64,000 bases of DNA from Gammaproteobacteria bacterium (GTDB taxonomy: Bacteria > Pseudomonadota > Gammaproteobacteria > Eutrophobiales > Eutrophobiaceae): positions 1-64,000 of the forward strand of contig JAJFKL010000025.1 in the NCBI GenBank assembly GCA_021773235.1, written 5' to 3'. This document shows, in pieces, positions 54,394 to 58,977 of the stretch. Every line of letters starts with the position of its first letter. Positions within the stretch are counted from its first letter, which is position 1. The notes beneath the pieces are model-generated. The model was given only the letters and a program-made list of their open reading frames with translations. It was not told the origin of the DNA and ran no database searches. Made by a program: the position numbers and the translations under genes.

Positions 54394-55488
54394 CTATTCT
54401 TGATAAACAGGGAAGTCAGCATAGCCTTCTTCAGAGGGTGCATACCAGATTTCCGTTGGGGCTTCTTCAGCAATCGTCCAATCATTTTCAAAACGTTCGA
54501 CTAAGTCCGGATTGCTTATATATGGACGACCGAATGCAATTAAATCGGCATGCTTATTTGCGATGGCTTGTTCTGCAGTTTTTTGGTTATAACCACAGTT
54601 ACCCATTAACGGTCCTTTGAAAACCTCACGTATATCTGACAGCGTCATGGCTTCACCAAGCTCATGAAAACCAAACGCCAAACCATCCATGACATGCAGA
54701 TAGGCTAATGAAAAATTATTTAGTTGTTCAGCAACAAAGGTAAATTGATCGCGGAAATCAGCCGACCCCATATCATTAAACACCCCATTGGGTGCAAGCC
54801 GCACTCCAATTCTATCGACAGACACTTCGGCCATTACTGCTTGCAATATTTCATCAAGAAAACGATATCGATTTGGGATGCTGCCACCATAATTATCTGT
54901 GCGCTCATTAGTCTTCGATTGTAAAAATTGATCAATCAAATAACCATTTGCACTATGTATTTCTACGCCATCAAAACCGGCTTGCATTGCACGTCTGGCA
55001 GCTTTTTTATAATCATTTACTGTTTCCTTAATTTGTTCAACTGTCAGTGCCGCAGGTGTTTCGTAATGTTCTTTACCCTTTGGAGTTTGAATATACTCGC
55101 CATCTAATTTAATCGCAGAAGGTGCAACTGGCAGTTCACCATTATGAAAACTACTATGTGATGCGCGACCGCAATGCCACAATTGTAAAAACATTGTGCC
55201 ACCCGCCTCATGTACAGCATCTACGACTTGTTTCCATCCTTGCACCTGTTCATCGTTATAGATGCCAGGGGAGTCCATCCAGCCTATGCCTTGTTTTGAT
55301 ATAACGGTTGCTTCTGAAATGATCAAGCCTGCAGATGCGCGCTGACTATAATAGTCCGCCATCAATGCATTAGGGATTCGGTCACTGCCTGCTCGGCCTC
55401 GTGTTAATGGTGCCATTACGATTCGATTTTTTAATTCTAATGTCGTGTTTATTGAGACTGGCTTTAATAATGGGCTGGCTTTACTCAT
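54394..55488 (-). CDS. Old Yellow Enzyme family alkene reductase, paralogue 1
   Basis: MAPLTRGRAGSDRIPNALMADYY; GFDGVEIHSANGYLIDQFLQSKTNERTDNYGGS. Confidence 0.94.
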   Translation of the reverse strand: MSKASPLLKPVSINTTLELKNRIVMAPLTRGRAGSDRIPNALMADYYSQRASAGLIISEATVISKQGIGWMDSPGIYNDEQVQGWKQVVDAVHEAGGTMFLQLWHCGRASHSSFHNGELPVAPSAIKLDGEYIQTPKGKEHYETPAALTVEQIKETVNDYKKAARRAMQAGFDGVEIHSANGYLIDQFLQSKTNERTDNYGGSIPNRYRFLDEILQAVMAEVSVDRIGVRLAPNGVFNDMGSADFRDQFTFVAEQLNNFSLAYLHVMDGLAFGFHELGEAMTLSDIREVFKGPLMGNCGYNQKTAEQAIANKHADLIAFGRPYISNPDLVERFENDWTIAEEAPTEIWYAPSEEGYADFPVYQE

Positions 55489-55646: not shown

Positions 55647-55664
55647 ATACACTTCCTTGTGTAT
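55647..55664. repeat. Short hairpin ATACACTTCCTTGTGTAT
   Basis: Perfect ATACAC/GTGTAT arms; same form at 57276 and 57421. Confidence 0.55.
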
Positions 55665-55706: not shown

Positions 55707-56147
55707 TTAATTCCAGCTTTGTAACTTAATTTTCCAGCTACCATCTTTCTGCCTTTCAAACACATTGGTAATGTTTCCTTTCAGCATAATCGCGTCACCG
55801 TTAGTATCAATCCGAGTAACTTCCCAAAGGCCGGTTTCATACGCAGTGTCACCTTTAATATCTAAATCGACATTCGAAATGGTATATTGCTTCATACCGA
55901 CTTCTCTCAGACTAAGTAGATAAGTGCTTATTGCTGACGGGCAGTCAAGGATCTCGCTACTAGGTGGAAAGACCATGGCATTTTCGGTATATAAGGCCAT
56001 TAATGCATCAGTTTTACCCTGACCGAAACTCATCGCCCATTTGGTTATGAGCGCTTCAATATCCGTACTATCTGCCGTATGAGAAACGGCAAGGTTTGAG
56101 CTCATAGACAATATTGATAACATAATCAATGTGTTAAGTGTTTTCAT
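55707..56147 (-). CDS. Exported DUF4440/SnoaL-like protein, paralogue 1
   Basis: Signal peptide; KWAMSFGQGKTDALMALYTENAMVFPPSSEIL ... FERQKDGSWKIKLQSWN. Confidence 0.85.
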   Translation of the reverse strand: MKTLNTLIMLSILSMSSNLAVSHTADSTDIEALITKWAMSFGQGKTDALMALYTENAMVFPPSSEILDCPSAISTYLLSLREVGMKQYTISNVDLDIKGDTAYETGLWEVTRIDTNGDAIMLKGNITNVFERQKDGSWKIKLQSWN

Positions 56148-56183: not shown

Positions 56184-56209
56184 ATTTGTGCGTTGCAACA
56201 AATATAGGT
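56184..56209 (-). promoter_or_regulatory. Conserved upstream box of DUF4440 paralogue 1
   Basis: ATTTGTGCGTTGCAACAAATATAGGT; 25/26 identical to 57951-57976. Confidence 0.6.
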
Positions 56210-56221
56210 ACGATAGACCCA

Positions 56222-56245
56222 ATAAACAAGGCTATTTCTGTTTAT
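56222..56245. promoter_or_regulatory. Putative LysR operator ATAAACA-N10-TGTTTAT
   Basis: 7-bp inverted arms, 10-nt spacer, 39 nt upstream of LysR start; same geometry in paralogous region. Confidence 0.65.
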
Positions 56246-56284
56246 AGACTTATTCCAAATAGGAAAGAATAGAACTTCAAAACA

Positions 56285-57232
56285 ATGGATAGATTAACAA
56301 GCATGAATGTGTTTGCCGCTGTCGCCAGGCTCGGCAGCTTCTCTGCTGCTGCAGAAGAACTCGATATATCAAATGCAATGTGTTCAAAATACATTAGTAA
56401 TCTTGAAGACAATCTCGGCGCAAGATTACTTAATAGAACTACGCGACAACTGAGCCTGACGGATGTCGGTAGTGCTTATCATAATAAAATTATCGACATC
56501 CTCACAGAAGTAGAAGCAGCGGAACAGTGTGTGTCTGAACTACAAAACAATCCCGTCGGGATATTACATATCATGTCACCGCCATCTTTTGGTTCTTTTC
56601 ATATCGCTCGTGCGATTAAAAATTATAAAAAGAAATACCCTGAAGTCGAAATCGAACTGATCATGTCAGACGATTTTGAAAACCTGGTGGATCTGGGTGT
56701 GGACCTTGCCTTTCGTGTCGGGGAACTGGAAGATTCCAGTGTTGTTGCTTTAAAACTATCTTCCAGTCGATTGATCGTTTGTGCCTCTCCAGAGTATCTG
56801 AAAGATAACGGTACACCTCAAATCCCAGGTGATTTAAATGATCACGTTTGTATGAGTGTGAGCAACAACCTGATCTTTTCACCCCAATGGACATTTAATG
56901 CCGATGGCATAGAGACAACGATTGATACCAGGACTAATTATTTAAAATCAAATCAAGCCGACTCCCTTCGCGTCGCCGCAATCAATGGTAGCGGATTGGT
57001 ACAGCTTCCCACCTACATGGTCGGGCTCGATATTCAAGCCGGGAGACTCAAACCGGTATTGGAAGACTATGAACCCGAACCATTACCAATCAATCTGATC
57101 TATGCACACCGTAAACACGTGTCTATAAAGATCAGAAGTTTTGTCGACTACATGAAAGATTATTTTGAAACCCCACCTTATTGGGATAAATGGATGTTTG
57201 AAAAAAGTAAGAGTTTAAAAAATAATTCTTAA
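56285..57232 (+). CDS. LysR-family transcriptional regulator, paralogue 1
   Basis: MDRLTSMNVFAAVARLGSFSAAAEELDISNAMCSKYISNLEDNLGARLLNRTTRQLSLT. Confidence 0.94.
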   Translation: MDRLTSMNVFAAVARLGSFSAAAEELDISNAMCSKYISNLEDNLGARLLNRTTRQLSLTDVGSAYHNKIIDILTEVEAAEQCVSELQNNPVGILHIMSPPSFGSFHIARAIKNYKKKYPEVEIELIMSDDFENLVDLGVDLAFRVGELEDSSVVALKLSSSRLIVCASPEYLKDNGTPQIPGDLNDHVCMSVSNNLIFSPQWTFNADGIETTIDTRTNYLKSNQADSLRVAAINGSGLVQLPTYMVGLDIQAGRLKPVLEDYEPEPLPINLIYAHRKHVSIKIRSFVDYMKDYFETPPYWDKWMFEKSKSLKNNS

Positions 57233-57275
57233 AGAGATTGATTTTGAAATAAGGCGTTAATAGAAAAGTTAAAAC

Positions 57276-57293
57276 ATACACGTCCTTGTGTAT
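57276..57293. repeat. Short hairpin ATACACGTCCTTGTGTAT
   Basis: ATACAC/GTGTAT arms. Confidence 0.55.
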
Positions 57294-57344
57294 AAAATAT
57301 TCATCCCCTCCTATCCCTAAGATGAAAACCTAATACTAATTCCA

Positions 57345-57412
57345 ACTCTGAAAACCAATCTTTCAGCTACCGTTATTTTGTATTTCCAAAACAAAGGTAT
57401 TAATCGTGTTTA
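57345..57412 (-). pseudogene. Remnant of DUF4440 gene 3' end (partial duplication)
   Basis: AATTCCAACTCTGAAAACCAATCTTTCAGCTACCGTTATTTTGTATTTCCAAAACA closely matches the 3' end of the intact gene at 57483. Confidence 0.65.
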
Positions 57413-57420
57413 CTAAAAAT

Positions 57421-57438
57421 ATACACGTCCATGTGTAT
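57421..57438. repeat. Short hairpin ATACACGTCCATGTGTAT
   Basis: ATACAC/GTGTAT arms. Confidence 0.55.
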
Positions 57439-57482
57439 CGAAAATTCATCCAAGCTCCTATTACCAAGATGAAAGTCTAAAG

Positions 57483-57923
57483 CTAGTTCCAACTCTGGAG
57501 TTTGATCTTCCAGCTACCGTCATTTTGTCTTTCCAAAACGTTTGTGATATTTCCGTCAAGTTTGATTTCCTTACCATCAGTACCAATCCGAACGGCTTCC
57601 CAAAGCTCTGTTGAATACGCGGTATCGCCTTTTACTTGCATATCAACATTAGAAATAGAATATGTTTTAAAGCCGACTTCCCTCAAATCATCTAAATAAG
57701 TAGTAATGGCTATGCGTCCTTCCAAAATTTCACTGCTGGGTGGAAATACCATTGCATCCTTGGTGTATAAGGTGGCTAAGTCCGTTGTGTTACCATTATC
57801 GAAATTGCTAGCCCACAAGGAATCAAGCATTTCTAAGTCAGCGCTTTCCAGTGTGTTTGAGGCTGCATAACTTGAATTTAATGATAATATTGATAATAAA
57901 ATCAGATATTTAATATTTTTCAT
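57483..57923 (-). CDS. Exported DUF4440/SnoaL-like protein, paralogue 2
   Basis: Start refined to MKNIKYLILLSILSLNSSYAA; TLYTKDAMVFPPSSEILEGR ... LERQNDGSWKIKLQSWN. Confidence 0.85.
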   Translation of the reverse strand: MKNIKYLILLSILSLNSSYAASNTLESADLEMLDSLWASNFDNGNTTDLATLYTKDAMVFPPSSEILEGRIAITTYLDDLREVGFKTYSISNVDMQVKGDTAYSTELWEAVRIGTDGKEIKLDGNITNVLERQNDGSWKIKLQSWN

Positions 57924-57950
57924 GATTGATGCTCCTGTTAATAAATGTGT

Positions 57951-57976
57951 ATTTGTGCGTTGCAAGAAATATAGGT
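57951..57976 (-). promoter_or_regulatory. Conserved upstream box of DUF4440 paralogue 2
   Basis: ATTTGTGCGTTGCAAGAAATATAGGT. Confidence 0.6.
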
Positions 57977-57988
57977 GCTATCATCCGC

Positions 57989-58012
57989 ATGAACAACAGT
58001 GGTTTTGTTCAT
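57989..58012. promoter_or_regulatory. Putative LysR operator ATGAACA-N10-TGTTCAT
   Basis: 7-bp inverted arms, 10-nt spacer, 38 nt upstream of LysR start. Confidence 0.65.
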
Positions 58013-58050
58013 GAACTCATTCCAAAAAGGACATAATCAGGTGCATATCA

Positions 58051-58977
58051 GTGGATAGGTTAACTAGCATGAGAGTATTTGCCGCAGTCGCCAGGCTTGG
58101 AAGCTTTGCGGCAGCGGCTGAAGAACTGGATATTTCAAACACCATGTGTTCAAAATTCATCCGTGATTTAGAAAGCAACCTTGGTGCAAGGCTTATCAAC
58201 AGAACGACCAGGCAACTGAGCCTTACAGAAGTGGGAAGTACTTATCATGAAAAGGTTATCGACATACTGACTGAAGTTGAAGAAGCAGAGCAATGTGTAT
58301 CAGAATTACAAAATGAACCCGTCGGGACATTGCGTATTATGTCCTTGCCTTCTTTTGGTTCTTTCCATATTGCTAGAGCAATTAAAGGTTATAAACAACA
58401 AAACCCAAAAGTCGCCATCGAATTAAACCTTTCAGACGATTTTGATAACCTGGTAGATAAAGGTATGGACCTTGCTTTTCGAGTCGGTGAACTTGAAGAC
58501 TCTAGTGTTGTCGCATTAAAAATATCATCAAGCCGATTGATAGTTTGTGCTTCACCGGAATACCTAAAAGAGAATGGCACGCCACAAACGCCGGACGATT
58601 TACAGGATCATATTTGTTTGGTTACGTCCAACAACGTCATCTTCACGCCACACTGGTCATTTAATTTAGATGGCGTAGAAACAGCATTTGATATTAAGAG
58701 TAACTATTTAACATCGAATATTGCCGATTCACTTCGTGTTGCCGCATTAAATGGCAGCGGCTTGATACAGCTACCCTCTTACATGATTGGTCTTGATATT
58801 CAATCAGGCAGACTCATGCCGGTATTAGAAAAGTTTGAACCTAAACCATTACCAATCAACTTGGTCTATGCGCACCGCAAACATATGTCTGTAAAAATCA
58901 GAAGCTTTGTCGATTACATGCAAGGTTATTTTGAAACACCTCCCTATTGGGATAAATGGATGTTTGAAGGTAAGTAA
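58051..58977 (+). CDS. LysR-family transcriptional regulator, paralogue 2
   Basis: GTG start; MDRLTSMRVFAAVARLGSFAAAAEELDISNTMCSKFIRDLESNLGARLINRTTRQLSLT. Confidence 0.94.
   Translation: MDRLTSMRVFAAVARLGSFAAAAEELDISNTMCSKFIRDLESNLGARLINRTTRQLSLTEVGSTYHEKVIDILTEVEEAEQCVSELQNEPVGTLRIMSLPSFGSFHIARAIKGYKQQNPKVAIELNLSDDFDNLVDKGMDLAFRVGELEDSSVVALKISSSRLIVCASPEYLKENGTPQTPDDLQDHICLVTSNNVIFTPHWSFNLDGVETAFDIKSNYLTSNIADSLRVAALNGSGLIQLPSYMIGLDIQSGRLMPVLEKFEPKPLPINLVYAHRKHMSVKIRSFVDYMQGYFETPPYWDKWMFEGK

Follow-up and report, generated by a model that had tools for sequence, protein, structure and literature searches.

The window (the whole stretch of 64,000 nucleotides that was analysed) carries two tandem copies of a cassette in which a DUF4440/SnoaL-like gene on the minus strand is paired with a divergent lysR gene on the plus strand (Table 1). 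Both regulators, LysR A and LysR B, possess an N-terminal HTH_1 domain and a C-terminal LysR_substrate domain that score over the Pfam cut-offs. The best NCBIfam model for the LysR is YafC, but its score of 241.5 bits against a cut-off of 470 means that this is not a YafC equivalog. Comparison with the PDB matched the LysR to the CrgA-type structure 3hhg (E=6e-48), which we take to be CrgA of Neisseria. The divergent lysR/DUF4440 pair seen in the window recurs among genus relatives and in further genera of the same family, with the DUF4440 gene as the putative target of the regulator. An old yellow enzyme (N-ethylmaleimide reductase-like) gene adjoins the cassette at 54394-55488; the same neighbour was observed in several genus relatives, some of which carry a second copy on the opposite side.

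Table 1 Genes, inverted repeats and predicted control elements of the duplicated cassette
Feature	Position	Strand	Remarks
DUF4440/SnoaL-like protein A, divergent partner of lysR A	55707..56147	-	Divergent pair recurs in relatives
Predicted -10 of DUF4440-A, TATATT	56201..56206	-	Consensus call
Inverted repeat A, ATAAACA-AGGCTATTTC-TGTTTAT	56222..56245	no strand	Predicted activation-site/-35 region
Predicted -35 of DUF4440-A, TTGTTT	56224..56229	-	Inside/at left arm; 17 bp from TATATT
Predicted main LysR box A, T-N11-A, TTCCAAATAGGAA	56253..56265	no strand	Aligns with TTGTTTC-N7-GAAACAA
LysR-type regulator A (CrgA/YafC-like)	56285..57232	+	Pfam HTH_1, LysR_substrate; NCBIfam YafC best, below cut-off; 3hhg
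DUF4440/SnoaL-like protein B	57483..57923	-	ATG at 57923 is the homologous start; the listed TTG (57965) lies upstream of it
Predicted -10 of DUF4440-B, TATATT	57968..57973	-	Consensus call
Inverted repeat B, ATGAACA-ACAGTGGTTT-TGTTCAT	57989..58012	no strand	Predicted activation-site/-35 region
Predicted -35 of DUF4440-B, TTGTTC	57991..57996	-	Inside/at left arm
Equivalent place of main LysR box B, TTCCAAAAAGGAC, imperfect	58020..58032	no strand	Alignment
LysR-type regulator B, GTG start	58051..58977	+	Pfam HTH_1, LysR_substrate

LysR A and LysR B share 79% identity, and the 87 bp surrounding the repeats align without gaps at 75% identity. Between the two cassettes lies a relic of a DUF4440 3' end (57308-57392; 80% identical to 57455-57539), a trace of the duplication. 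The sequence ATACAC-N6-GTGTAT, with a near-constant middle, lies past the stop codon of DUF4440 A, of DUF4440 B and of the truncated relic (55647-55664, 57276-57293 and 57421-57438). It is kept in most of the genus relatives examined, has no mismatch-free copy elsewhere in the assembly and no match in Rfam, and is perhaps a 3' hairpin or terminator.

Upstream of each lysR gene, in intergenic DNA of 137 bp (A) and 127 bp (B), stands an inverted repeat with 7+7-bp arms and an N10 spacer, located 39 nt from the ATG of lysR A (56285) and 38 nt from the GTG of lysR B (58051). Rechecking of the coordinates confirmed the earlier note's description of the arms, the spacer and the 38-39 nt to the LysR start; its description of an A/T versus G/C difference present in both arms was likewise accurate, although the term "co-varying" here covers one pair on one branch. 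Repeat B is the longer of the two, its full dyad (57988-58013) having 9-bp arms and an 8-nt spacer, CATGAACAA-N8-TTGTTCATG. Tandem duplication of the cassette makes equal arms, spacer and start distance expected by descent, so repeats A and B do not constitute independent tests; information can lie only in the differences between the two copies.

A pattern scan for ATRAACA-N10-TGTTYAT returned perfect matches in the window only at repeats A and B, and no other perfect inverted repeat of this kind was present when the whole assembly was scanned. With up to two mismatches, seven matches were observed in the window versus 2.0 expected. When the intergenic DNA was base-shuffled, a perfect 7-bp inverted repeat with a spacer of 0-20 arose in 26% of shuffles for A and 18% for B, and a 9-bp inverted repeat, as in repeat B, in approximately 1% of those for B. 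On its own, repeat A is ordinary and within chance, and repeat B is mildly unusual. Besides its two copies, TGTTYATRRACTYATTCCAAA had no other perfect or near match in the assembly, with three more at 3 mismatches. Since the assembly holds no further perfect inverted repeat or near TGTTYATRRACTYATTCCAAA match, a wider regulon using the same site was dropped as a candidate, and regulation looks local.

We compared the upstream regions of 35 LysR relatives, of which 14 belong to the genus (three A copies, three B copies and eight others) and 21 come from outside the genus or from a second LysR subfamily. A 59-bp block aligned without gaps over the 35 sequences; G071, being mis-oriented, was left out. 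In the protein tree, full support was obtained both for an A clade (G000, G009 and G003) and for a B clade, which comprises the same three genomes together with G006 and G010, where the B-type copy was the only one found; the remaining genus members fall in an unresolved fork. Among the 35 sequences, the three A and three B copies carried by G000, G009 and G003 are the only ones to form all seven pairs of the repeat. Pairing drops to 6/7 in G006 and G002, to 4 or 5 of 7 in the rest of the genus and to 2-4 of 7 in sequences beyond the genus set, and ACA...TGT is nearly fixed within the genus.

Promoters in the block were called by consensus, and distances from the predicted DUF4440-A start assume that it lies 7 nt past the -10, which predicts starts near 56194 for DUF4440-A and 57961 for DUF4440-B. 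A minus-strand TTGTNN-N17-TATATT (TTGCTA in two) was found in 14/14 genus sequences, and other DUF4440-linked members have N16 or N17 with TA-rich hexamers. Over or beside the predicted DUF4440 start sites lies ATTTGTGCGTTGCAA (56184-56198 and 57951-57965), the same in both copies and retained by most DUF4440-linked relatives. TTGTTTC-N7-GAAACAA, a dyad that includes T-N11-A, ranks first in the block both outside the genus and when all 35 sequences are taken together. Within the genus, the reported repeat is the more symmetric of the two, with 85% of its pairs formed versus 62% for the T-N11-A-type box. The box is centred at approximately -65 from the predicted start, on the side nearer lysR, and the repeat at approximately -39.5, which places the latter over the predicted -35/-10 of the putative target. 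A complete T-N11-A near -65 is present in A; its last A is a C in B and in several relatives, where the box is imperfect. The inverted repeat itself was rejected as the T-N11-A LysR box, its dyad being even (24 bp) and T-N11-A odd (13 bp). The main LysR box is likely a dyad other than the reported repeat, with its centre 25.5 bp away.

Reading promoters, binding and regulation from what was observed, namely the duplication, the alignment, its conservation and the broken pairs in relatives, we consider it probable that repeats A and B descend from one activation-site/-35 segment, belonging to a LysR-type divergent control region of the standard kind, and that tandem duplication of the cassette gave rise to the two. 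A LysR tetramer would probably anchor at the T-N11-A-type box, with its second dimer touching the reported repeat, which overlaps the predicted -35 of the DUF4440 gene. Through such binding lysR would be repressed, and the DUF4440 gene switched in response to an inducer. Two observations weigh against this reading: the greater symmetry of the reported repeat than of the box within the genus, and the 9-bp form of repeat B, which is improbable by chance and intact in three genomes. The earlier note had presented the repeats as paired LysR operators. What stands of this is that they probably lie within LysR-contacted DNA, in view of their activation-site place and the nearly fixed ACA...TGT; what falls is their independence, since the cassettes are duplicates.

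Alternatively, the dyad may be incidental, with the left arm retained because the -35s of two opposed promoters overlap there, the right arm retained because it belongs to the lysR promoter, and the symmetry itself without a role. We regard this as unlikely. It agrees with the wider family, where the left arm reads as a -35 on each strand (lysR, TTTACA-N16-TATATT; partner gene, TTGTAA-N17) and where no full pairing was seen outside the genus, and with repeat A being within chance; however, the genus strongly conserves TGTTCAT, the right arm, even though its lysR -10 has degenerated at the position used in the family, and a 9-bp dyad such as that of repeat B is improbable by chance.

The same upstream block is present in the second LysR subfamily (L056, L029 and L027), whose lysR gene is flanked by a dihydrolipoamide dehydrogenase-like gene and an acetyl-CoA acetyltransferase-like gene (names from translations). 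Several of its sequences keep a minus-strand promoter-like TTGTNN-N17-TATCTT, though no divergent gene is evident. Because promoter-like spacing also occurs in this subfamily, conservation of the left arm may reflect LysR contact and not a -35. That the block persists in such a setting also suggests autoregulation as its ancestral role.

A further reading takes the repeats as operators proper, selected for dyad symmetry, with the compensated position as a sign that LysR A and LysR B have come to differ in specificity. Several observations are consistent with it: the arms are perfect in 3/3 A and 3/3 B copies, the repeat is the best dyad of the genus block, and the dyad exceeds column permutations over the 14 genus sequences (p=0.013). 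However, the single co-varying pair traces to one branch. Its right side is T in the A clade and C in every other genus sequence, its left side is A, G or T within the genus, and the pair is mismatched in five of the eight genus sequences other than the A and B copies (T:C in G006, G011, G007 and G002; A:C in G010, where the left A is thus present and unpaired). With the left side varying freely, a match in the A clade would have had a sizeable chance of arising once the right side became T.

Statistics over the genus alignment point the same way, with 84.7% of cells paired versus 82.7% in shuffles. The one double-change pair was equalled in 336/500 shuffles; the three double-change cells were equalled in only 9/500, but all three are A-clade sequences and represent one event. 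Once the A and B copies are set aside, the repeat dyad of the eight remaining genus sequences was not above column-shuffled controls (p=0.22), and selection for pairing, which the earlier note had drawn from the two repeats, is not supported. When the paired pattern was sought in relatives, as that note had proposed, the arms were found not to stay paired at orthologous loci, an outcome that the note had named as refuting its claim.

Alignment of the recognition helix, also a check put forward in the note, gives a similar picture. Consistent differences between the A and B clades occur at positions 31 (A/T), 36 (Y/F), 38 (S/R) and 39 (N/D), as would be expected of regulators with diverged operators; yet single-copy orthologues mix these states independently of arm sequence, G001 combining A31 with the arm TTGAACA and G004 combining T31, Y36, S38 and N39 with ACGTACA. 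G006 and the B copy of G009 share the same recognition helix, yet the differing pair is T:C in the former and G:C in the latter, which is fully paired. Helix differences do not track the arms, and arm changes in orthologues neither stay paired nor follow helix changes. With the pair broken in five relatives and the helix of G006 identical to that of the G009 B copy, the sequences compared do not support a divergence of operator specificity between the two LysR paralogues, and operators proper appear quite improbable as an account of the repeats. The A/T versus G/C difference probably reflects drift at a weakly constrained arm position and not a change in specificity.

There is a slim chance that the duplication was followed by a gain of symmetry in the activation-site half of each operator, yielding lineage-specific dyads of 7 bp in A and 9 bp in B, in which case the two LysRs may favour different second-dimer sites, partly insulating the two DUF4440 genes. 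A role for the repeat as a leader RNA hairpin, into which the sequence of repeat B is able to fold, was rejected as extremely improbable because folding energies did not improve on those of shuffled sequences (z -0.4 and -0.8) and Rfam gave no match; moreover, repeat A is not predicted to form a hairpin, and the repeat is located in predicted promoter DNA.

Collectively, the locus offers a clean test case for the divergence of a duplicated LysR-type regulator together with its control region, with single-copy orthologues available for comparison. Matching inverted repeats within a tandem duplication are not to be counted as independent evidence.

Among known systems, the nearest sequence relatives of both LysRs in the PDB and NCBIfam belong to the branch of CrgA (Neisseria, PDB 3hhg), YafC and AaeR; unlike YafC and AaeR themselves, both fall well under the NCBIfam equivalog cut-offs. 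Bidirectional promoters of E. coli resemble the predicted arrangement in that two opposed promoters have DNA in common, but there the shared symmetric part has been described for the -10 region (PMC12825309), whereas the overlap here is predicted at the -35. LysR-type control regions span 50-60 bp in total, with a T-N11-A recognition site near -65 and an activation site over the -35/-10, and the divergent promoters of regulator and target are close or overlapping (PMC8407307); two to three inverted repeats have been described between divergent LysR and target genes (PMC5002191). The locus resembles these regions (PMC8407307; PMC5002191) in its divergent regulator-target pair, its conserved block of 50-60 bp, and its predicted T-N11-A-type box on the regulator side with a second dyad over the target -35, the two centres being 25.5 bp apart. 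It differs from them in the imperfection of the box within this genus and in the greater symmetry of the second dyad in the duplicated copies.
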